DNA of 64,000 bases from Paulownia fortunei. Its lineage: Eukaryota > Streptophyta > Magnoliopsida > Lamiales > Paulowniaceae. This document shows, in pieces, positions 5,806 through 64,000 of this stretch; positions within the stretch are counted from its first letter, which is position 1; every line of letters starts with the position of its first letter. The translations under genes were made by a program, and so were the position numbers. The stretch spans positions 15,491,445 through 15,555,444 of the forward strand of contig CM033107.1 of the NCBI GenBank assembly GCA_019321725.1. Reading direction: 5' to 3'. The notes below the pieces were generated by a model that did no database searches, was not told where the DNA came from, and saw nothing but the letters and a program-made list of their open reading frames with translations.

Positions 5806-8800
5806 TTGGTTCTTGTGGTCTCGACAAATGTTAACGCAATGGAATTCAAAAAAATTCATAAAAATATGAAATATAACTACATCATACGTAATAAAACATG
5901 AATCTCAAAATCCATTCACGATTACTTAGTTGCGTGTTTTCTAATACTTAACGTACGGAGGTTTCATTTTAGAAAACTTTACCTTGATTGTACTTTTACT
6001 GAAGAAGATGCATATAACAATCCTAATTGTCACCTCTCCACGAATACCTTCGCGAATCTCGAATTCACTCATGAACTCCGTCATAAATTTCAAATCCATC
6101 CAGGAACCTTTTTTGCGTATCTTGTTCCCATACCCCTCTTGTTAGAAACGGTTAGCTGAGAATTCTAAGTGTTATCCCTCTAAGCATACCTGCACATTAA
6201 AGTCTTCCACACCAATTAGATCTATGCTAGTAGCCCCAAAAAGGCTATTTATTCTAGAATTTTCAACTTGTGAATAGAAAAATTGAACTTGTGATCAAAA
6301 GGTGAAATTCTTTGATAGAGGAAAGGAATCAAAAGAAGAAGAAAAAGTGAGGCGGATTTCTCTGCAAGTGCTAGCCGATTTTTCTCTCTAATGTTTTCAC
6401 ATTTCGGCCATTTGGGGAGTCCTTGTATAGGACTCCTCCAATCATAGTCCCATAAGATTTTTCACTTACCTCCTTTCTTATTTGATTCCTCGTCTCCATC
6501 AAATTCTAAGAACATTTCAATTTTCTAGCTAAACTTCCTAGATGGCCTCCTACGAGCCCATTAAATTGGGTTCAAACTTTAATTAACTTAATTACGTCCA
6601 TTTAATTGATTCTATCAATCAAATAAGCTCAACTAAATTGATTAACCCAATCAATTAATTAATTTGTTCCAGTTGAGCTTTCTTATCATATTAGAACTGT
6701 ATAATCTTTTCATTTTATACTCCCAATTTAAATATTAATCACATCAATTGATTAACCTGATCCCATATAGAGCTCCTAATTATATTAGGTCCAATTAAAT
6801 AATCATATTATTTAATTGGATAAATTAATTTAACTTTATAACTTAATTTATACCTTACTTAAATACCTAACGGGTCACACACTAACTCGTACAAATTCAT
6901 TTTTTGATTAAGTAATTAATCCAAGAGTTGGATTAAATTTAATTAATATGATAAATTAAATGATATTTAATTAATTCAAGTATTGGATAAATTCAATTAA
7001 TTATTAGATTAAATAATTGACTTAATTGGATTAGGAGGTCCGTTATAGAACAAGTAATTAATTATTTAAGATTACTAATTATTATGGGCCTTAATGATTC
7101 ATTGATATATTAGTTTAATTAATTTGATTAATTAAATTAGATCAAGATCCATTAGGTGTGGGCTCGTTGCAAGCCCATGAGGAATTTATTATAGATAAAA
7201 TTCCAAGATTGATTAGGAAGATAAGTCTTTGATTTGGGATCAAAGACTTGCCTTTTAGAATACAAGTTGGACTTGGAAAAAGATCCCGTGAGATGGAATC
7301 ATGGGGATATATTATTGGGTTCACTATAACCAAAGGGGTAAATGCAGTTGAAATTAAATTTTTTAAATAAAACATGCGATAACGTTTATTGCATTATCCC
7401 CGATTTCGCAGTGATTCTAACAATCGACGTCATTAACAGTCTAATGAATAAAATATAAATATAGTGATTATGTAATTCGTTACCCTTTTTTTGATTCTCC
7501 GATTCAGTGCAAGGCTTAAGGCAATCAATTGCTGAATTATAGTGAATCTCTCACCAACGAGTCCATGCGTCTTCCCTTTAAAGAAGTCCACACCTTGGAC
7601 TAGAATAACCGAAAACAGAAAACTTGCTAGTGTTCTTTGTATTCTTTTTCAAGCCTAAAAGGGAGTGAACACTAATCTTTAATTCAACCAGTGGAATCAA
7701 AGATTAAGTGTTTATAATTATTATTCTTAATCCAATTAGTGGAAGAAGAATAATATACTAGGATATTTGAAGAACAAAGGAAATGAGAAGAGAGAAGAAG
7801 AAAACATTTTTCTTTTGTATTTGCTAGTGGCCAATTTTTAGGAGTGAGTAGAATGTGGGATTTTGTCTTCAATCTCTATTTATATGGTAGCTAAAAAAAT
7901 TAGATCAAACATAATATTATCCTCATATATTGATTTGGTTGTTTAGAAAGTCTAACTTTCCTAACAAACTAAATCCACATCATTCTAAAATCCCCTCTTC
8001 CTTCTAACTTTAATAACCGAAAATATGGTCTAAAATGGCCACCAATTTTGGCCCCCTCTCTCCTCCAAATACATTGAACCTATTCCATAAATTCAATCTT
8101 GATATCTTATATCAATTAAATAAGAAAAAATATTTTTTCTAATTAATTTAATTATTCTAATATTCCAAGTTGGCTACTAATAAGCCATTTTTAAGTTGGA
8201 CTTGGACTTCTCAAGCACATTAATTAATCCAATTAATTAATTAGTCCAAATTCAATTAATTGATCCAATCAATTAATTAATTTACTCCAATTTGAATTCT
8301 CAATCTAATTAGGTCCAATTAAAAAATCATATTATTTAATTAGATAATTAACTTAACTAATTTGAATTAATTTAATCCTTAATTAATTAATTATACCCAA
8401 CTCTTTGGATTATTTTTAGATTAGATGTTATTAATTCCAAATTATATGTGACCATTTAGGTTCACTACTAATCTAGTAGTGGGCTTGCAATATTTACAAA
8501 TTATGAATAACAATTATTTTGATTAATTAATTCAATTAATTAATCTATTTGGAATTAACTCTTTAAAACCAAGAACTTCACTATCCATAAAAATACTTAA
8601 TAAGTAATCATGACAAACTAGTTTTAGGTAAAATAGTAAGTGATCTTATTACAATTACGTATACCATGCACGTAAGGTCCTTCCGTCAACTAATCTTCCG
8701 ATTGAGTCTATGGTATGGATAAGAGTTGAAACCCTAATTGACTCAATAACTATGATTCCATTTCAAGTTCTGATGACTCTTGATGAATCATCAGAATTTT

Positions 8801-10221: not shown

Positions 10222-10222
10222 T

Positions 10223-11832
10223 TGATAAGTGCATATTTTGACATATTTTTATATCAAATCCTTTATACTTTTCTTGCTTTATTCTTGTTAATATTATTGT
10301 TTTATTAATATTTTGTGTTAGGGAATAAATGGAAGCATGTTTCCAAACTTGTGCAGTTTTTGTAATTTGAGCATAACTTCATGATCAAAAGCTCTATGGA
10401 CTTGAAGCTTATTTCATTTGAAAGCCAAGAGATAGAGGTACAACTTTTATGTTGGAGGCTCAGCCCAATTCAGTGTTTATGATAGCAGAAAATTCATCCA
10501 AGTAGTTGCACAAAATGGATCACCAAAATTCGGATCAGAGTTCAGCCCAGTATTGACTTATTTTACCAATTCGGTTATATATCTTGAGCCCAAATTTATT
10601 TTGGTCTGAAATTTGGATATGTTATACCCAAGAGGTAAATAAACAAGTTTTCGGAAGACAAGATGGTGTGAAAATGTGTTGAAATGGTAAAACCATAGGC
10701 TGCAATTTGCTGCTGATGTTACAGGGCGGCTCTTGGACATGACTCGGTAATTTGACCATATCTCCTTCATCCGATCACCAAATTTGACAAAAGATATATG
10801 AACATATATCAGCGCTGAAAGATCTATAATTTTGATTCTTTATGTATCTTCAAAATATGGCTGTGGTGGATTGAAAAATGTAATTCAATTCAGTAGATGA
10901 GAAATTTGTGTAACAACTTACCAACTCTTGGCAACTAGCATACCACTTGATTAACCCCTCCATTATTTGTTTGGCCTCTAGCTTACTCCAAGTACTATAA
11001 ATAGGCCATGTATTCAGCTTGTAAGAGGAGGGGGGTAGAGGGTTTCTTTAGGCTAAGTTATCTAGTTTGTATGTTTTCTAGTATTGTAAGTTTTCTAGTA
11101 GTAATAGAAATGCATTCTGTAGTTTCTCTTATATTTTTAGTCTTTGTTACTTTTATTATGTCTTTCTAAACTTTATTTTGCTGAGGAAAAAGGGTGAATC
11201 TCTTAATGGAGGAAGAGAAATGGTTATAAGGGTAGAAATTGTTTAAGTATGTTGTATTATTATTTTTATTTTTTATCTAAACCCTACTTGTTTTGTGGTG
11301 ATTCTTGATTTATGTATCTCCAATGGCACAACAAATACTTGGGTTCATTTAGCTTATTGTACGGTTTTACCCACCGACTGCTAATGTGAAACTTGATTTG
11401 TTGTTGACGAAGATGTATATAAATACTTGATCTCATAAATAAGTGTTGGCGTTGAGAGATAATTTGCAATAGTAAGACAATATCATGATTACCTTATTGC
11501 ATGAGTTACTTGATAATATATTCCCATTGGAACCTTCATTATGTATGGATTCCAATTGTGGCAATTAATAGAGGTAAAAAGAATAAATAACCATTTCTCT
11601 ATCCAAAACTCAAGAGTGAATCCCTAATCCTCAGTACTTTTATTACTTCAGTTTTTCTTTAGTTACATCATACATTAATTGTTCATATATTTTGATTCAT
11701 ATAAACTCCATCTTTTTAGAAATATAAACTTGAATTCTTCAAACAACTTCCCTGTGGATCGACCTCGGACTCACGAGAAATTTATTACTTACTACAACTT
11801 GCACTTGGGTTTGCAACCTTAAAGTTGTAGCA
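10223..11832 (+). mobile_element. 5' LTR of Athila-type element A, inserted in the gypsy integrase
   Basis: It begins TGATAAGTGCA directly at the break of the gypsy frame and ends GTTGTAGCA six bases before a tRNA-Asp primer binding site. Length is about 1610 bp. The same LTR family appears on the - strand at 56586-60157 and 63675-64000: the block around 11500-11660 (CATGAGTTA, TATGGATTCCAAT, CCAAAACTCAAGAGTG) is repeated there. The five bases before it are CCATT. The 3' LTR is not in view, probably lost in or beyond the assembly gap. Confidence 0.75.
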
Positions 11833-13700: not shown

Positions 13701-13800
13701 NNNNNNNNNNNNNNNNNNNNNNNNNNNNNNNNNNNNNNNNNNNNNNNNNNNNNNNNNNNNNNNNNNNNNNNNNNNNNNNNNNNNNNNNNNNNNNNNNNNN
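13701..13800. other. Assembly gap (100 N)
   Basis: Exactly 100 N, the usual placeholder for a gap of unknown size. Left of it an Athila polyprotein runs on the + strand into the protease; right of it an Athila polyprotein runs on the - strand and ends within integrase. Sequence of unknown length, orientation and order is missing here. Confidence 0.99.
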
Positions 13801-52052: not shown

Positions 52053-52306
52053 TTTGTATGAGGTTAATTAGGTCAACACATGGAAACTGTAAATTTTGTA
52101 ATCAGGATGGAGCTTTGTCATTCATTTGCATCTGCAATAAAATTAGATTGAATTTTCATATGCTTTTATCTTGTTGCAAAAAAATCCAACATTTCTTATT
52201 CCCTTCTGAAGTTGTAGCCAACATGCCTATCAGATTGGTGTAACACTCGAGTACACTCTTATTCAATCAGTATCTTGCTTATCATCCATCTTTCTTTCTT
52301 TTCCTT
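52053..52306 (+). promoter_or_regulatory. ABCG32 3' UTR and likely polyadenylation region
   Basis: An AATAAA hexamer at 52136-52141, about 85 bases after the stop codon, is a reasonable polyadenylation signal. The non-autonomous LTR element starts only 255 bases after the stop codon, so the natural transcript end is tightly bounded. Confidence 0.45.
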
Positions 52307-53114
52307 TGTAACTCAAATTTCGTGTTTGCAAAATAAAATTACAAATAAAAAAATTGTACAAATAAAATTTTATTGAATTGAAAGAATATATATGAATACA
52401 AACTCTCCTTGATCTTTTTGACTCTTCTCTTCAAAAGAAGGATTTAGGAATTTAATACTTCGGGAATTGGTGACTTGATTTTCTTCAAATTTGATTTGTC
52501 ATTCGATAATATTAATTTGAAGGTTTAGCACCTTAATATCGAATTAAACGTCATGATTTGATGAGCTCGACAACAAACAACTTGATATTCACCTTCAACA
52601 TCGGAAATCTCCTTGAATTTGTTGGATTTGCGTTAAAAGAATTTCCTAACTTCTTTCAATGTCTCCCTTGCTTGAATGTAGAATTGTTGTTGTTGTTTCT
52701 AACTCCTTGGAGATAATCCCTATTTATAATTGTAATATGAGCTCTTTTTGCCATAATTATTTGATAAAGTAGTACGATTTGATTGGCTTTTTATGATTTG
52801 ATTGACAGTTATTTTCTAATCGCAAAATGTGATTTGGACTACAAAAATATTGGCATTCACTTCCATACTTTTTAGATATGATTTGAATTGTCAAAATATT
52901 ACAATTTCATCCATGGTAATATTTAATTTGCTTATAAATTAAATATCTTAATTAATCTTAGAATTCAATGATACTTCAAAATAAACAAAAATATAAAATG
53001 ATAAATAAAATACATACACATATCAATGCATAATTAGCTACAAATTTTTCATGTCTACAAATGCCCCTCGAGACTTATTCATGTGCATTTATTTCAACAA
53101 ATGTGAAAAGTGAA

Positions 53115-53699: not shown

Positions 53700-54225
53700 G
53701 GAATTAGCTTTTAACAACTTCAGTCCCATTTGAATGAAATTTGGGTGAAGATATGGAATACCATCTTCAATTGTCCCCTTGAAATGGAATTTGAGTTAAG
53801 ACATGAAATATTGTCTTCATTTGCCCACTTTGAATAGAATTTGAATAAAGACATAAAAGGTTGCCTTCATTTGCCCTCATTTGGATGAAATTTGACTGAA
53901 GATATGGAACATCGTCTTTGTTGTCCCATTTGAATGGAATTTTCAAGGAAGAAATGAAACACTGCCTTCATTGCCCCTTTTGAATGGAATTTTGAGCAAA
54001 GACATGGAACACCGTCTTCATTTACCCCATTTGAGTGGAATTTGAGTGATGGCATGGAACGTCACCTCCATTTGCCCTCTTTGAATGAAATTTGAGTGGT
54101 GGCATAGAAAACCGACTCTATTTACCCCTTTTAAATGGAATTTTGAGTGGTGACATTGAACACAGTCATTATTTGGATGGAATTTGACTGAAGATATGAG
54201 ACCGCCTCCATTTGCCATCTCATGC
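53700..54225 (+). repeat. Minisatellite 2: degenerate TGAATGGAATTTGAGTGAAGAC units
   Basis: About ten imperfect units of roughly 50-55 bp, with cores TTTGAATGGAATTTGAG, GACATGGAA and CCGTCTTCATTTGCCCC. It follows minisatellite 1 directly but is unrelated to it. On the - strand short frames repeat KFHSNG-like words, an effect of the repeat unit rather than a gene. Confidence 0.8.
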
Positions 54226-55160
54226 TTGTATTTTGATATTGGTGAAGTTGGAGTGATTGTCCTTCATTGTCCATTTGAACTTCGAACTTGATTTATAAGA
54301 GATGAGATGAGAGGTAAAGATCGTCCTACCGGGCTTGCCAGAAACTTATAACCCAAATTCGTGTCTGCAAAATAAAATTACAAATAAGAAGAATTATACA
54401 AATAAAATTTTATTGAATTAAAAGAATGTATGCAAATACAATATCTCCTTGATCCTCTTATTTTTCTTTTCAAAAATAAGAATTTTAAAATTTAATACTT
54501 TGAACGTAGAATAGATGACTTGATCTCCTCTAAATTTAATTTATCATTCGATAACGATAATTCGAGGGTTTAATACTTTAATCACAAATTAAACGCCATA
54601 ATTTGATGAGCTCGGCAATAAATGCTTTGATATTCACCTTGAACACTGTGGATTTCCTTGAATTTGATGGACTTGTGTTGAGAGAATTTCGGAACCTCCT
54701 CCAATGTCTCCCTTGCTTGAATGTAGACTTGTTGTTGTTGTTTCTAACTCCTTGGAGATGATCCCTATTTATATTTGTAGGATGTGAGCTCTTGCCATAA
54801 AATAGCACTATTTAATTGCTCTTGCATAATTTGATTGGTATTTATTTTCTTAATCACAAGATACGATTTGGATCACCAAAATATTAACATTCACTTTCAT
54901 AATCAAGATATGATTTGAATTGCTAAAATATCACAACTTCATCCATGGTAATATTTTACTTGCTTATTAATTGAATTCCTTATTTAATCTTGGAATTCAA
55001 TGATAATTCCAAAAATAAATAAAAAATATTAAATTGATAAATAAAAAATATTGCACATATCAATGCATAATTGACTACAATTTTTTCGTGTCTATACCCT
55101 TTTTTTTATGAGGTACGATAAGTATCATTAATTGAAAAAAGCCAAACCAGCTAGTACAAC

Positions 55161-56585: not shown

Positions 56586-59500
56586 TGCATGTGTTAAGCA
56601 TACCAAATTAAAACCTTACTACTAAAATAATTTTATAAGTATAGTGCGAGTAAGGGTCGATCCCACGAAAACCAATGCTAACTAATTTATTATCGATTCT
56701 ATAACTAAAGACTCAACTCACTAATAATATGTTATAATTAAGAAATCAAAATAATAAAATACTGAGGGTTAGGGACCCACTCTTGAGTTTTGGATAGATG
56801 ATCGATTATTTATTATTATTTTTACTTCTTTTTAAATGTCACTATTGGAATCCATACACAATGAAGGTTCTAATGGAAGATATTATCAGATAACTCATGC
56901 ATTAAGATAATAATAACATTGTCTTACTGTCTGTAAATTATCTTTTAACGTCAATACTTATTTATGGGATTAAGTATATTTTATGCACACCTTTGTCTAC
57001 AATAGATCAAGGTTTTATATAGTTGGTATAGTAGAACCAGACATTTAGCTAAATGAACCTAAATATTTATTGTTCTTTAATAATATATAAATCAAGAACC
57101 ACCACTAAACTAGGAGGGTTTAATCATAAATTAAGATAATAACATAATAAATTTAAATGTTATGTATTTTTATAACCGTTCCTCTTCCTCTATAAGAGGT
57201 TCACCCTTTCTCCTCAATTTAATGAAATTTAAAAAGACATAATGAAAATAAAGAAAACTAAATATAAAAAGAAACTAAAGAAGACATTTTTATTATAACT
57301 AGAAAACTTTATGTAGGTTTGATTTGATTAACTAATTTGTAGAAAATAAAATTAAAATAGAATATGCCAATTAATGAAAATCAAATAAATGGACACAAAA
57401 ATGATGAATCTTTGGTTAAGGTTTCATTCACAATTAATTGTGAATTGATATTAATATTACTCAATTGTACGAATTAATGTCCAGGGTTTTGAGATCACTC
57501 TTAACAACATTGTAGATTTAGTCTAGCATACTTGAAAATAACAAGAAAAATAAAACTAACAACATTAGGAATTCAAGAAATTGAAAAGAGAAAAGGGGAA
57601 TAAGAACACCAATATGGATGAATTCCCTTGGTAGATGAATCTCCCCTTTTAAAACCCTCTTCACCTCTTCTATTTTTGGAACCTAAAGCTCTCTACTTTT
57701 TTTAGATTTTTCATGTGTTCCCAATGACATCCAAAAGGCTTTATTTACAGTAGAAGAGTACCCTAAATTGGCATCTCCAAATTCACTCCAAATTTGCTTC
57801 AAATTTGCTCTAAATTCACATGGATTTGAATATTTTCACACATTTTTCTTTATGAAATTAGCCAATTTTGGAAACATGGACAACATGAAAGTTGTGTATT
57901 TATCTGTTATCTTTATTTTTCAACTTGAATCATATCATTCTAATACGTGAGGCACAAGTTATACCTAAAATACAAGGGGTTGTTAGATGTTAAAAATCTT
58001 CCAAAAAACCTACCTATATCTTTTGATTACTTTTTCCCTTTGTTAACAACTAAATTAGTTGTTATGGTCTTTTATAAAGCTGTAGAATCATGTGTTGGCT
58101 TTCTTTTCCAGCTTGTTTCACTTGATTTCAATCATGAGGGAGAAAATTATACTTGATTTAAGGAGACGTGTCTGCATAGGAAGATTTCTTCCAATGTAGA
58201 CACTTAGACGAATTGTCTGCTTTTAACAATGCCGAATTGAGCTTATCTTCCAACAGCAAAGTTGTAGCCAAGTGTAGGTTGTGTCAAGTAATAATTTTTT
58301 TATGAGTCTGAGGTCGATATATAGGGAAGTTATTTTCAAGATTATATATCTTAAAATATGGGCTTTATGTGGTTTACATTTTAAAGAAAAATTTGTGCTA
58401 TAACTAAGAAATCAAAATAATAAAATTATTGAGGAATAGGGATCCGCTTTTAAGTTTTAGATAGATGAACAATTATTTATTATTTTTTTACCCCTTTTAA
58501 TTGCCACTATTGGAATCCATACACCATAAAGGTTCCAATGGGAAGATGTTATCAAATAACTTATACATTAAGGTGATCATGAAATTATCTTACTGTCTAT
58601 AAATTATCTCTTAATGCCAACACTTGCTTATGGGATCAAGTATATTTATGCACACATTTGTCTACAATAAATTAAGGTTTCACATTAGTAGTCAGTATAA
58701 TAGAATAAGACATTTAGCTAAATGAATTCAAGCATTTGTTGTGCCATTAATAATACATAAATCAAGATCACCACTACTCAAGGAGTATTTTAATGCTAAT
58801 ACTTATTTATGAGATTAAGTATTTATGCATATCTTTATCTACAATAAATTAAAATTTCACGTTAGCAATCGGTATAGTAGAACTAGACATTTAGCTAAAT
58901 GAACTTGTTGCGCCATTAGTGATATATAAATCAAGAATCACCACTAAACAATGAGGGTTTTAATAAAAAAATAAAATAATAATACAACACCCATAAACAT
59001 TTTGTAACTTTATGCCCATTCCTCTTCATTTATCAATAGGCTCACCCTTTCTTCTTACCTAAATAAAAGTTAAAAAGACATAATGAAAGTAGAAAAGACT
59101 AAAAATAGAAGTGAAACTACAAAAGATATTTCTTTTAGTACTAGAAAACTTTACCTAAAGAAAGACAATAATAAAACTTACTTCCCCCCTCCCCAAGGTA
59201 TTTTGTGTGTCTTAAATGACATCCAATAGACCCTATTTATAGTAGAAGAGTACTCTAAATTGGAATATCCAAATTCACTCCAAATGCACTCTAAATTTAC
59301 TTCAATTGTGTTCTAAATTCATATGTCCTACTTGAATCCAAATTTTGTCACATATTTTTCTCCATGAATCAACTGATTTTAAACAAGTGGTCAAAATGAA
59401 TAGTAATTTTCAACTTGAATCACTTGATTCCAATCACGAGGGAGAAAGTTATACTTGATTTAAGGAGATGTGTTTGCATAGATAGATTTCTTCCAATACA

Positions 59501-60157
59501 AATATTTGGATGATTTTTTTGCTTTTATCAAGGTTGAATTGGGCTGAGCTTCCAACATCAAAGTTGTAGTTCTATTTCTTAAATTTCAAATGCCATAAGA
59601 TTCAGATCCATAAGGCTTTTGAGCATGGAGTTATGCCCAAAATATAAAAATTGCTCAAGTTTGGAAACATGTTGATTTTAAATTTAATGCAAGTCCAATA
59701 ATCACTTGCAAAGTTTAAGTGATTTCTTGCATATATTCTGATCTAAACATGATGGACTTAGGGAAAAATGGTCATTTTCTTCTAATTGTGATGCTTCTTT
59801 GATAAAAAAAAATATTATCTCCCAACTTGCTCACGAAACGTGTTGTCTTCTTTGGTTTTATTTTGGCTATTTTTGATCTTTTTTTGTTCATTGATTCCCT
59901 AACACTAAACATTAATAAAACCTCAATATTAACAAGAATAAAATAAGGAAAATATAAAGGATTTGATATAAAAATATAAAAAATATGCACTTATCAATGT
60001 GTCGTCTTATTTGGTTTCATTTTGGCTCATTTTGATCTTTTTTTGTCTATTGATTCTCAAATTCCTATAAAACACAAAACATTAATAAAATTATAATATT
60101 AATAAAAATAAAGAAAGGAAAGTGTAAAGGAATTGATATAAAAAAATGCACTTATCA
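56586..60157 (-). mobile_element. 3' LTR of Athila-family element D, with a second LTR copy nested inside
   Basis: On the - strand it starts TGATAAGTGCA at 60157 after a purine tract and ends in CATGCA at 56586, the same end as the LTR at 63675. At 3572 bp it is about twice the length of the related LTR at 10223-11832. The excess is a second copy: 59996 is another TGATAAGTGCA start, and a second LTR end (wording like 11745-11820) lies near 58267-58340, so about 58267-59996 is a nested LTR; roughly 270 bp of the host LTR was lost beside it. Duplicate blocks such as GAAATCAAAATAATAAAAT at 56741 and 58408 show this. Confidence 0.65.
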
Positions 60158-60171
60158 AATTCCCCACACTT
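60158..60171 (-). other. Polypurine tract of element D
   Basis: On the - strand AAGTGTGGGGAATT directly precedes the LTR start TGATAAGTGCA. Upstream is CTCGAGGACGAGAAAATGG, the usual lead-in of Athila-type and related elements. It primes plus-strand DNA synthesis and fixes the orientation. Confidence 0.85.
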
Positions 60172-61893
60172 AACCATTTTCTCGTCCTCGAGCAAACCTA
60201 AACAAAACTTAAACTAATCCACTTTTATAGAAAATCACAATTGCATTTAGCATATGCAACAAGTTCTTAAACCCCTAGATGACCCATAAAGGATGAGTTA
60301 TAGTCTTGTGAGGGCTTCCAATGGTGATACCCACAAACACCTATGATAATTGACTTCCAACCTTTAATCTCAGAAAGCAACAAAGTAATATGGAAATGAA
60401 ATCAAACAATTGTTGAATCTAACCCTTAGTAATTCAAAAGACAATATATTTTCATAATAATCACACTCAACTGTGTGTGTGAATAGCTAATGCCAACAGT
60501 AATGAAACGATGCATGCTTCAAATAAGTAAATTCCCATAGAACTTCTCTATATTAGAAAAGTTGAACATTATAGGTTCCTCCTTTGATACAAATTTCCAC
60601 TACACCGAAGGAATCATATAAAATCAAAAGGCCTTCAACAAAGATTGTAATGGGGCCAAAGGGTATGATATAGCTAACAAGTGAAAGGATAAGATGCAAC
60701 AAATGTTCTAAAAACTTCATGGGGTTAGAAACATAGAGTTCATTAATGGAGAATTCTCATATACTATGAATTTCAACACCGGGGCCTATTATTATTGAGT
60801 TGGACTCCTCTTCATCATTCTTATTGACTTTGCAACATCCTATTTTTAGTTTCAACTCATAATATTTTTATTCAACATATTGCAAAATTTTATTTCTTTT
60901 TTATTTATTTATTTTTTTTCTTTGAACTCCTCCACACTTATCTTCTATTCCAACCCATATTTTTTTTTTGCAAGCTCACCTTGTCAATAGAATGTATCTT
61001 AAGCTCCAAATTATTTTTAGAACAAGGGTAGGATAATAATATATTTAGTCTAGATAAGAAGATATGGTTACTATATAAAAAGCTTATTCATTGAAATGCC
61101 CAAAATGGCTTACTATGGGGAATGTTCTCTTGGAACATCACATGGGGAACAAGTTGATTTGGCCATAGTGCTAGAAAGCCTGGTACCTTAATTATTTTTC
61201 AAGCGGTGCTCAATCAGTCGTTCACCTCGATAAACCAAAAAGAAAAAATTCTAACACTCCACCCCTACGTGTCGAAAATCCAAGTGATGATAAAGCGAGG
61301 GCATAAGAACTACCTATTTTGATACGCTTGTCTCCATCTCGAATAACATAACTTTATGTACAAAAAAGATTTAAGTATAATTATCACAAAATATATATCA
61401 ACCAAAGAACAACATCAAGGCCCAAAACAACACGCATTAATAATCACAACCACATTATTCATGCTCAATTTTAGTTATTGAAGTCTAAAACAATTGACAA
61501 TTCAAGAAATTTTAGTTAAAAACATCACAAACATGCCATGTTATGCAAAAAAAAAAAGATAGAGGTACGTGTCAAGAGTATTAAAGTTACTCTTTACTCT
61601 GCTACCCTTTTTCATGGTTTCAATGGACCCAAAAGAAAATGCACTTGATTTTTTTTTAGAAAAGTAAGGAAAGCACATATTGAACACACCAGACATGATA
61701 TCAACTATCCCCAATTGCCCCATCTAATCGAGACATTGTCCCTAATGTCAAAAATAGATAGGAAATTAGAGCTTAAAAGATATCACTTGAAATGTGACTT
61801 ATTGAAAAATAAAGTTGAAACAACAAAATATACACACAGTTAGTCAAAACCATTAAGGATAAATTTTACAGACTGAGAGTCAAATTTATTTTT
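60172..61893 (-). other. Internal region of element D, 3' part, non-coding
   Basis: About 1.7 kb of AT-rich sequence with no gag, protease, RT or integrase wording on either strand. A 60-codon frame at 61541-61723 shows no known motif. Confidence 0.5.
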
Positions 61894-62510
61894 CATTTTC
61901 GACCACTGTCCCTTTTAGACCAATCCACACAAGGCAAGGCTGGATCAAGTTCTGACACATATGCTAGATCAATCAATTGGCTATTTGTTGGTAAAGAAAT
62001 GAGGATTCGTCTCACAGATAGTGAAGTAAAATTTTTTTCCATAGCATAATCTATGAAAGATAGCAATCCATTAAAGAAACCATTAACATTAAGAATATCA
62101 ACACATTTCTAGTGAACATTGAATTGTGCCTAGGAGACAACTTGGAATAACTCCTCCAGTATACCAAAACCACCAGGTAGGGTGATGAATAAATCCACAT
62201 TATTTAACATGTTGGCATTCTGCCCTAAATATGTGACACTTTTAGCTCATTTCCGATTATCATACCTATGATATTATATACTGTTAAAGGTTTTGAGATA
62301 ACTCCTAAGACTTTAACTTTTCCTACATGAGCAGAAGTAGCAACACTCCCCATTAACCCAAACTGCCTCCCCCATACACTAAATACATTTTTCTTTTTGC
62401 TAGAGTTCTACCAAGATTATTGGTTGCTTCTATAAATTCACATTTTTTCCTGAATTAGCTCCACAAAAGATACAAATACAGTTGAATTTGTGAGTGAAAT
62501 ACCCTTCCAT
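61894..62510 (-). pseudogene. LOG: Intronless LOG-like (cytokinin-activating phosphoribohydrolase) pseudogene inside an LTR element
   Basis: LOG enzymes release active cytokinin bases from nucleoside monophosphates. On the - strand, start ATG at 62510, the frames give CICIFCGANSGKN (family ICVFCGSxxGK), then TLAKRKMYLVYGGGS, LGLMGSVA, KVKVLGVISKPLT, then the signature PGGFGILEE (62151-62177; family PGGxGTxxE), AQFN, ILNVNGFFNGLLSFIDYAM and RRILISLPTN, in family order over about 205 codons, the normal LOG length. Host LOG genes have several introns; none is left here, so an mRNA was copied. At least three in-frame stops and two frameshifts are present, and the catalytic Arg of the DMHxRK block appears as Gln. 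It lies between the LTRs of element D, in the same orientation. Confidence 0.82.
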
Positions 62511-62939
62511 TTTTTTCTTTTCATTTTTGAAAGTGAGTTGTGCAAAAATGAAGTGAGTACGGTGCAATTTATTGAGGTATGAATAGGGAATGCATTTATT
62601 ACACATCTTTTTCTTTTATTAGAAAGGTTGAAAATAAGGATACAAAATTTACAAATTAGCTACTTATACATGAATGTACATATAGTTGTAACTGTGGCTC
62701 ACATATTAGCTACTTCAAATCCAGAAGTGATTCCATAAATCAAGTATTGCACGATGCACTAATCCACAAGGATGCTTTTCAAGAGTCAATAGAATATCAT
62801 CTATAGACTCTTTACTCAATCCATCCTTAATGAATTGAATTTTATCTTCTCGATTTTTAGAAATTATTCCTAAGGAATGACACTTTGTGTTACAAGTTCA
62901 TTAAGCACATCTGTGACAAACTTGCATTTTTTTCGCCCT
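62511..62939 (-). other. Internal region of element D with decayed coding-like sequence
   Basis: On the - strand the stretch about 62890-62715 reads ISKNREDKIQFIKDGLSKES, then IDDILLTLEKHPCGLVHRAILDLWNHF, without a stop. Composition is protein-like and unlike its AT-rich surroundings. I do not recognise the family. It may belong to the same captured sequence as the frame at 62940-63215. Confidence 0.4.
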
Positions 62940-63215
62940 TTATTTTTTTACACATGAACTTTTACCTAAACCAGACATGTATCTAGTGAGTAAGTTTGAA
63001 AACTCACCTGCTACTCTTACTTTTGCTTCAATTATCCATCGTATGTCTCCTAGGATGCCCTTATGCATAAGCATACTTAATCTTTCAATTCTAGTTTGGT
63101 AAATGTTTAAGATTGCATTTTCAAGAGAAAAAAAAAATCGCTTCTTAAGAGTTAGAAAGACATCATCCATTTTGAAAAAAAAATAAGGAAAGAGAAAGAG
63201 ACAAACTTTGTACAA
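62940..63215 (-). pseudogene. Unidentified reading frame in element D
   Basis: A 91-codon frame; after a Phe/Lys-rich start it reads ENAILNIYQTRIERLSMLMH, then KGILGDIRWIIEAKVRVAGE, then FSNLLTRYMSGLGKSS. It has no gag, pol or zinc-knuckle motif. It could be a second captured host fragment or an element-specific protein. It continues, after a stop and frame change, into the coding-like stretch down to 62715. It has no ribosome- or promoter-level signal of its own. Confidence 0.4.
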
Positions 63216-63648
63216 TTTTTTTCTTTTCTGTATTAGTTGTTTGGAAACTGATTAGTCCGACTTCATTAGCCATGGAGTTCTGTTATCCACCACTTAATTG
63301 GGAAACAGAAAAAATAAAAAAAGAAAGCCTACAAAACAAACAAAGTTAGAAAAAAAATTAAACATACCGTATTTACAAAGGAGAAATAGTTACAAACTTG
63401 AAAACTTATCTTACCCTTTTCAAGAGTAAGAGGAGTAGTTTCAAACTCGAGCTGAGGAGGTTAATTGATTGGAGGTATAGGCAAAGTTGGCAACAGTGTT
63501 GTCAAACTAATTTGAATCAGCTTAAAATCCTCCAATCACATAAACAACCTAACAATAACAAGAAAAGAAACCAAATTGAACTATCAAGATAAAATATATG
63601 AAAAAAATGGAAAACTTGAAAATGACAATAAGTCAATTAAATGCTTGA
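63216..63648 (-). other. 5' leader of element D
   Basis: AT-rich sequence between the unidentified frame and the primer binding site. No motif was recognised. Confidence 0.4.
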
Positions 63649-63666
63649 TCCCCGACAACAACGCCA
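63649..63666 (-). other. Primer binding site of element D, decayed tRNA-Asp type
   Basis: On the - strand TGGCGTTGTTGTCGGGGA. It differs from the perfect tRNA-Asp site seen in element A (TGGCGCCGTTGCCGGGGA) by three C-to-T changes, as produced by deamination of methylated cytosines. It lies eight bases after the 5' LTR end. Confidence 0.88.
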
Positions 63667-63674
63667 AAATTTAA

Positions 63675-64000
63675 TGCATGTCATTAAGCATACCAAATTA
63701 AAACCTTACTACTAAAATAATTTTACAAGTATAGTGCAAGTAAGGGTCGATCCCATAAAGACCAAAGCTAATTAATTTATTATAGATTTTATAACTAAAG
63801 ACTCAACTTACTAATAATAATATGTTATAATTAAGAAATCAAAGTAATAAAATACTGAGGATTAGGGATTCGCTCTTGATTTTTGGATAAAGGAATAATC
63901 TTTTATTATTCTTTTTACCTATTTTTAAATTATATTATCGGAATCCATACACAATGAAGGTTCTAGTGGGAAGATATTGATAGATAACTCATGCATTAAG
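63675..64000 (-). mobile_element. 5' LTR of element D, cut by the window end
   Basis: Begins (+ strand) TGCATGTCATTAAGCATACC and matches 56586-56910 closely through the GGGTCGATCCCA block, the ACTGAGG-TTAGGGA block and ACTCATGCATTAAG. The rest lies outside the window. Confidence 0.85.

Follow-up and report, generated by a model that had tools for sequence, protein, structure and literature searches.

We analysed a stretch of 64,000 nucleotides of the Paulownia fortunei genome (contig CM033107.1, positions 15,491,445 to 15,555,444; the whole stretch is called the window, and positions are counted from its first letter). The minus strand near its right-hand end carries an old, broken copy, devoid of gag and pol, of a high-copy family of Ty3/gypsy-type long terminal repeat (LTR) retrotransposons, an assignment of anatomy and family that is in little doubt. 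Between its LTRs lie the remains of two extra genes: one is LOG-like (LOG enzymes release active cytokinin), and the other, here called NABP (nucleic-acid-binding protein), is related to the cysteine-rich protein (CRP) of betaflexiviruses, a group that includes carlaviruses and vitiviruses. The two genes appear to have been carried jointly by such elements in several flowering plants. Our best overall explanation, in which we have rather better than even confidence, is that the element carries both genes, that they were acquired a single time and that they condition the host.

A LOG-like gene in an LTR element

The LOG-like frame (61866..62510, minus strand) is full-length and intronless, and consists of four in-frame segments with several stops. 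Six-frame reading and tblastn with an intact Paulownia LOG placed the start of the frame at an ATG (62510) and its end at the position that corresponds to the native stop (61866); the tblastn alignment to the intact homologue covers residues 1-211 of 217, without introns. The blocks PGGFGILEE, YGGGS and LNVNG are present in family order. The piece 61893-62108 (minus strand) matches PDB entries 2a33 (Arabidopsis At2g37210, E 6.6e-9) and 1ydh (At5g11950, E 1.2e-5). Against Pfam PF03641, the window fragment reached E 2.9e-4 and 21.5 bits, under the gathering score of 27; the intact Paulownia homologue P0002, encoded without a difference by a frame on contig 6, matches PF03641 with E 1.3e-37 and 2a33 with E 4.3e-62. 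Judged by homology over the whole enzyme, the frame is a member of the LOG family.

In element orientation (minus strand), the internal region comprises 3,517 bases between the LTRs. A putative primer-binding site (PBS) at 63649..63666 (minus strand; TGGCGTTGTTGTCGGGGA), 8 bases inside the edge of the 5' LTR, resembles the complement of what we take to be the 3' end of tRNA-Asp. A putative polypurine tract (PPT) was recognised from sequence at 60158..60170 (minus strand; GTGTGGGGAATT). No gag or pol domain was found in ten open frames of the internal region (one match, E 0.047, was at chance level), and a query with an integrase end gave no match in the locus holding the element. The region contains a further coding remnant, a broken NABP/CRP-like frame at 62715..63170 (minus strand). 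In tblastn, 63170-62715 matches residues 1-149 of an intact NABP homologue at 61%, with three in-frame stops in the matched segment and the C-terminal part lost.

An earlier sequence-only reading of this DNA had proposed an LTR element with an intronless LOG copy in the element's own orientation. Homology, the frame and the PBS-like and PPT-like sites bear this out. Its signature blocks were recovered in the six-frame reading, the tRNA-Asp-type PBS and the PPT were both located at the ends of the internal region, and the protein match to LOG that it had suggested as a check was significant (2a33, as above). It was also right that gag and pol are lacking. Its range for the gene, 61894..62510, was slightly short, and the NABP remnant had been overlooked.

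The LTRs are less regular. The inner end of the 5' LTR lies at 63675..64000 (minus strand), and the LTR extends past the window to the equivalent of 65161 (locus L028, 119-1606). The stretch 63675-64000 matches 56586-56906 at 87.4%, beginning exactly at the LTR edge. On the 3' side, 56586-60157 is a compound region in which one LTR encloses another and about 270 bases are lost where they join. Its first part is at 59997..60157 (minus strand; beginning TGATAAGTGCA, with the LTR edge at 60157) and its remainder at 56586..58267 (minus strand), with the outer edge (TGCA) at 56586. Between them, at about 58268..59996 (minus strand), lies a second LTR copy of the same family, visible as direct repeats and as matches to 10222-11808 reversed; it probably represents a nested solo LTR that has suffered a local deletion, and its ends and target duplication are blurred. 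The matched LTR ends described earlier thus stand as far as the edges are concerned, but the 3' LTR is compound and identity across the matched stretches is 73-87%. Because the identity is this low, we take the insertion to be old. The flanks of the element show no matching target duplication (GTTGG vs ATGGC). Elsewhere in the window, a further LTR of this family at 10222-11808 is almost complete, appears to be solo and has the opposite orientation.

Copies and siblings in Paulownia fortunei

Searched with the internal region, the genome yielded 4,283 first-look candidates; 40 were scored, with 83 matches, and 37 of these 40 loci (counted by eye) match on the LOG side as well as on the NABP side. 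With the intact LOG as query, 4,368 first-look candidates were obtained and 150 were scored, at 86% identity or more over at least 200 of 217 residues. These copy numbers are minimum values, and good matches have an advantage in the first look. The element-type LOG is a single exon in all 150 scored copies; 92 of them (counted by eye) have no stop and 58 are listed with a stop. Twelve copies without a stop were fetched, of which ten have an ATG and two (L033 and L038) do not. The LOG therefore occurs far beyond this locus, and the earlier suggestion that the window copy is broken while sister copies may be intact was borne out.

Nine flanked siblings, selected for matching both the LOG and the NABP sides, all carry NABP and LOG at the same place and in the same orientation. 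In six of them, the C-terminal end of an integrase lies directly upstream of the two genes. On contig 6, four loci that were read separately make up a young element with gag, pol, NABP, LOG and a 3' LTR. Its gag matches PF03732, and protease, reverse transcriptase (RT) and RNase H are in one frame of 899 amino acids; the integrase is in pieces, with two integrase-core matches below the gathering score. NABP is frameshifted once, and LOG is intact (217 amino acids). Identity between its LTRs is 99.4% across 1,020 compared columns. A PBS, TGGCGCCGTTGCCGGGGA, lies beside the 5' LTR of the young sibling (L043:5185), and L042 shows a PPT-like motif before TGATAAGTG. With LTRs, PBS, PPT, gag, pol and an integrase placed after RNase H, the sibling element is a Ty3/gypsy LTR retrotransposon.

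The family is probably Athila; the PBS type, the extra 3' genes and the reported LOGL4-like genes of Athila-like elements are consistent with this label. Athila ORF-1 (PF03078) had no match in the frames scanned. By their position, NABP and LOG occupy the spot where Athila elements often have env-like genes. A donor-like GGTAAGT follows the PBS in L043; production of an env-like spliced mRNA is no more than a weak idea, the acceptor not being conserved.

The sequence-only reading had attributed the capture of LOG to a non-autonomous element. This is contradicted by the position of NABP and LOG downstream of the integrase in six of nine siblings and in the young element with gag and pol, and by the occurrence of LOGs of the same clade in several plant families. 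The window copy instead appears to be a later derivative without gag and pol, because its junction is shared by siblings. At this junction, between the leader and the region before NABP (63350..63367, minus strand), gag-pol is absent; leader and junction are common to the window copy, L022 and L024 (L004 and L005 repeat the L024 locus). Other copies match the stretch in parts only, most of them from about 63350-63367 onward. Since the same join is found in L022 and L024, we infer that the form lacking gag and pol multiplied after it arose, presumably with proteins of complete relatives. L004 (contig 883) and L005 (contig 5) are 99.7% identical over 4,940 bases, and the small contig probably represents either another haplotype or a duplicate.

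An inverted copy of the window element is present on the same chromosome (13835445-13838961; L002), identical over 3,517 bases. With the flanks included, the two loci agree at 6,503 of 6,517 bases, which points to a recent duplication or an assembly artefact and not to transposition.

Element-type LOGs form a clade apart from host LOGs

Homologue searches yielded 764 LOG and 1,138 NABP proteins passing the cut-offs, with 120 proteins listed per search; the tree rows were chosen by hand from the listed LOGs (68 for the first tree, 26 for the second). In the second tree, of 37 rows, 26 element-type LOGs fall into one clade (support 95/97); a separate clade (98/96) holds the nine host LOGs, of which seven come from Paulownia. 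The element-type clade takes in Paulownia, Rehmannia, Orobanche, Populus and Malvaceae. Within it, the Lamiales (Paulownia, Rehmannia and Orobanche) form a group; the Reevesia rows cluster with one unnamed row, and the Populus rows with some unnamed ones. Because the element LOGs form one clade apart from the host LOGs, the tree agrees with mostly vertical descent from one old acquisition; a single acquisition we consider likely. Element LOGs may also have been transferred horizontally between lineages. Some members of the clade bear names of host genes: P0043 is named LOGL10 (Populus), P0086 is named cytokinin-activating enzyme, and P0106 also falls here; LOGL10 of Populus and cytokinin-activating enzyme of Orobanche minor are among the names.

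Joined gene models were found in two other plants. The Citrus model P0167 joins NABP to LOG, and the Rhamnella model P0151 joins an integrase end to NABP. The first part of P0151, not recognised in a search of Pfam, aligns at 77% within the integrase frame of L041 and at 54-67% to other Paulownia elements. Two further co-occurrences were not used in the argument: LOG P0113 and NABP P0131, each on a 4,511-base JGI contig, are suggestive only, and for P0003 and P0166, each on a 1,730-base contig, the equal lengths may be chance.

The protein search for host LOGs of Paulownia was swamped by element copies and was replaced by a pattern search (17 matches, 2 in the control). The pattern requires the motif lysine, so that the host loci are no independent evidence on this residue. 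Ten of the 17 loci were fetched; eight gave LOG exons, seven of these with several exons, and two (L052 and L053) gave none. Introns interrupt the Paulownia host LOGs, one of the sites lying between PG and GYGT of the motif. In peanut, LOGs mostly have seven exons, according to the available text of PMC13257298. The element-type LOG differs from host LOGs on both counts: its single exon is what a copy that arose by way of RNA should show, and in the tree it lies apart from the host clade.

Among the matches listed, and leaving out one short row (P0116), the final glutamate of PGGxGTxxE is kept in 115 of 119 LOG homologues. The arginine of the motif, which we take to be the catalytic one, is kept in 108 of 119. 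The lysine that follows it is replaced in 118 of 119, while both Arabidopsis rows and both bacterial rows have K.

The NABP/CRP-like gene

The first homologue search with the NABP frame found 54 proteins, and a profile built from 26 gave the 1,138 mentioned above. Intact NABP relatives carry Pfam PF05515 (Viral_NABP) and/or PF01623 (Carla_C4): 23 of the 26 homologues match each of PF01623 and PF05515 at E <= 1e-3. When homologues were examined singly, five of seven (P0121, P0123, P0125, P0131 and P0137) scored above both gathering scores, and P0145 and P0151 above that of PF01623 only. The window's own NABP pieces gave no match to the viral families of Pfam, and the signal came only via intact homologues.

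A finger with the spacing CX2CX4CX3C is present in 123 of 150 rows, and a basic patch before the finger in 106 of 150 under a strict pattern, some rows being fragments in both counts. The carlavirus CRP fingers are spaced CX2CX9CX4C and CX2CX12CX4C in the available text of PMC3689765 and PMC10141686. We read NABP as related to the betaflexivirus CRP without being a typical member. The carriers of NABP seen here are LTR elements and not RNA viruses. In a collection of viral contigs, the NABP and LOG queries gave 24 and 13 pattern matches, with no relative confirmed.

Probable constraint on LOG

Comparison of the intact LOG copy with older copies and the window gave ratios of nonsynonymous to synonymous substitution rates (dN/dS) of 0.30-0.61, each path being partly neutral decay (17 rows, about 14 distinct, with the repeated loci L003/L026 and L004/L005/L024); the value for the window was 0.54. 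Among ten young Paulownia copies (10 of the 12 fetched, L033 and L038 being dropped), dN/dS had a median of 0.67 across 45 pairs and reached 1.6. Of all single substitutions in the LOG frame, 76 of 1,944 (about 3.9%) create a stop. Nevertheless, no stop interrupts eight full-length LOGs, taken from other plants or from unnamed contigs, that are 56-68% identical to P0002. Because dN/dS against old copies is below 1 and the diverged LOGs are stop-free, LOG has probably been under constraint in replicating lineages.

A proposed role for the gene pair

The Paulownia sequences show the genes themselves, along with their order, number and open frames. We propose that NABP and LOG were acquired once, by an ancestor shared by several core-eudicot lineages or by an element passed between them, and that selection in replicating lineages would have retained both. 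The NABP/CRP-like protein might counter RNA silencing, alter nuclear transcription, or do both. By releasing active cytokinin, the LOG enzyme would keep the cell dividing and meristem-like. In dividing, weakly silenced cells the element would be transcribed and passed on, and here a retrotransposon would gain most. A derivative without gag and pol could then have been moved in trans, and its copies would have decayed. We give this host-conditioning role for the two genes slightly less than an even chance. A bolder version, that an LTR lineage has carried a two-gene kit for managing the host (a silencing-suppressor or cell-fate protein together with a cytokinin enzyme) since about the rosid-asterid ancestor, we find rather doubtful. 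If it were true, the element would behave from within the genome like a gall-former or a virus and make meristem-like cells accessible to transposition, and some of the LOG genes listed for published plant genomes would in fact belong to it.

Several observations weigh against the explanation that we favour. The NABP finger spacing is unlike that of carlaviruses, and the predicted structure of NABP is poor (pLDDT, predicted local distance difference test, of 52). The p12 protein of chrysanthemum virus B (CVB) did not suppress local silencing in the available text of PMC3689765, although that of PMC10141686 calls it a suppressor; CRPs vary in behaviour among viruses. Loss of the lysine may mean that the substrate use of LOG has changed. 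Selection within the recent Paulownia burst is not clear, and by their dN/dS values the young copies appear to drift. L041 and L012 lack the acceptor that an env-like spliced mRNA would need. In the first tree, the three Malvaceae genera are not grouped together; in the 37-row tree, host LOGs are thinly sampled, and the root lies on two long bacterial branches, which drew a program warning. Outside Paulownia, the element setting of the clade LOGs is deduced from copy number, clade membership and joined models.

Four other explanations were weighed. LOG might be kept for nucleotide hygiene, breaking down unusual nucleotides and so helping reverse transcription, a role likened to that of the dUTPase carried by some retroviruses. 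With the lysine lost in 118 of 119 homologues the substrate could have changed, most of PGGxGTxEE is retained along with the arginine, and nucleotide cleaning has been proposed, from yeast LOG1, as the original role of the LOG family (available text of PMC5940212). Plant LOGs, however, are best known for cytokinin activation, and the adjoining NABP gene suggests interaction with the host; we regard hygiene as the main rival, though an unlikely one. It is also improbable, in our estimate, that LOG and NABP merely hitch-hike without benefit and were amplified only with the element. Both genes are broken in the window copy, most of the older copies examined have stops in LOG or NABP, and the median dN/dS among the ten young copies is 0.67. 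Under such a passenger status one would have to account for eight LOGs that are stop-free at 56-68% identity when about 3.9% of substitutions make stops, for dN/dS of 0.30-0.61 against old copies despite partly neutral paths, and for the kept catalytic motifs.

Repeated capture, with the elements of each lineage taking LOG from their own genome, would agree with the mention of LOG in Gypsy elements of few species only in the available text of PMC9289625, and with only nine host rows in our tree nearer host LOGs may have been missed. The LOGs of Lamiales, Populus and Malvaceae nevertheless form one clade, none of them adjoining a host LOG, Paulownia's own included; the loss of the lysine is common to element LOGs, and NABP adjoins LOG both in Paulownia and in the Citrus gene model. 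We assign repeated capture only a small probability. An independent retropseudogene, a processed LOG that landed in the element by chance, would account for a window copy that is intronless and broken, and would be expected to occur once. Instead, 37 of 40 scored loci carry both the LOG and the NABP sides, LOG stands beside NABP at the same place and in the same orientation in nine siblings, and 150 near-full-length LOG copies were scored genome-wide. This recurrence leaves the retropseudogene virtually no chance.

If the pair works as we propose, with NABP and LOG conditioning the host, a transposon would steer plant development to its own benefit. Such a system would link hormone activation, viral counter-defence and retrotransposon success, which are usually studied apart. 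Published lists of plant LOGs may also mix transposon copies with host genes, as the Populus, Orobanche and Rehmannia proteins in the element-type clade suggest, with effects on family counts and expression studies.

Other features of the window

The 3' region of the element between LOG and the 3' LTR (60158..61865, minus strand; about 1.7 kb) matches its equivalent in the young sibling at 76.6% of nucleotides, and eight open frames scanned in it contain no Pfam domain. Outside the element, positions 1977-2929 consist of proline-codon-rich tandem repeats (CCACCT-type units), like those of extensin-like cell-wall genes, and 13701-13800 is an assembly gap of 100 N. A direct repeat of 750 bases (80%; 52306-53057 and 54346-55094) surrounds a tandem array with 50/100-base units at 53725-54220.

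Comparison with known systems

LOGL4-like extra open reading frames (ORFs) in two Athila-like elements were reportedly described by Steinbauerova et al. in 2011/2012 (Genetica). A YgdH/LOG domain is present in LTR-element consensuses of Citrus sinensis, C. clementina and Populus trichocarpa, according to the available text of PMC9289625. LOG in plant Gypsy elements of Citrus and Populus is thus already in print. These elements share the LOG domain with ours; the LOG clade described here includes Populus, and the NABP set a Citrus model with NABP and LOG. That text as available does not mention a virus-type NABP, a spread over Lamiales and Malvaceae, young copies or a form without gag and pol. 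The literature searched gave no account of a viral-type partner, of NABP and LOG as a unit, of the burst in Paulownia or of the derivative without gag and pol.

Athila elements with env-like or additional 3' ORFs (available text of PMC7264820 and PMC11728184) likewise have extra genes between pol and the 3' LTR. As described there, those ORFs are env-like or mostly without known relatives, whereas both genes here have clear relatives. In two Phalaenopsis species, Ty3/gypsy elements of orchids carry an RNA demethylase domain for N6-methyladenosine (available text of PMC9289625). They resemble the Paulownia element in that a plant LTR element gained and kept an extra enzyme domain; the enzyme is a different one, and the same text mentions no virus-type partner.

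A Betaflexiviridae sequence has been found in cucumber, replicase-like and not a CRP (available text of PMC3136472). The carlavirus CRPs (CVB p12 and the CRPs of potato viruses M and H; available text of PMC3689765 and PMC10141686) share with NABP a basic patch followed by a cysteine finger, and PF01623/PF05515. NABP differs from them in being retrotransposon-borne, with about 182 amino acids, another cysteine spacing and a conserved C-terminal tail.
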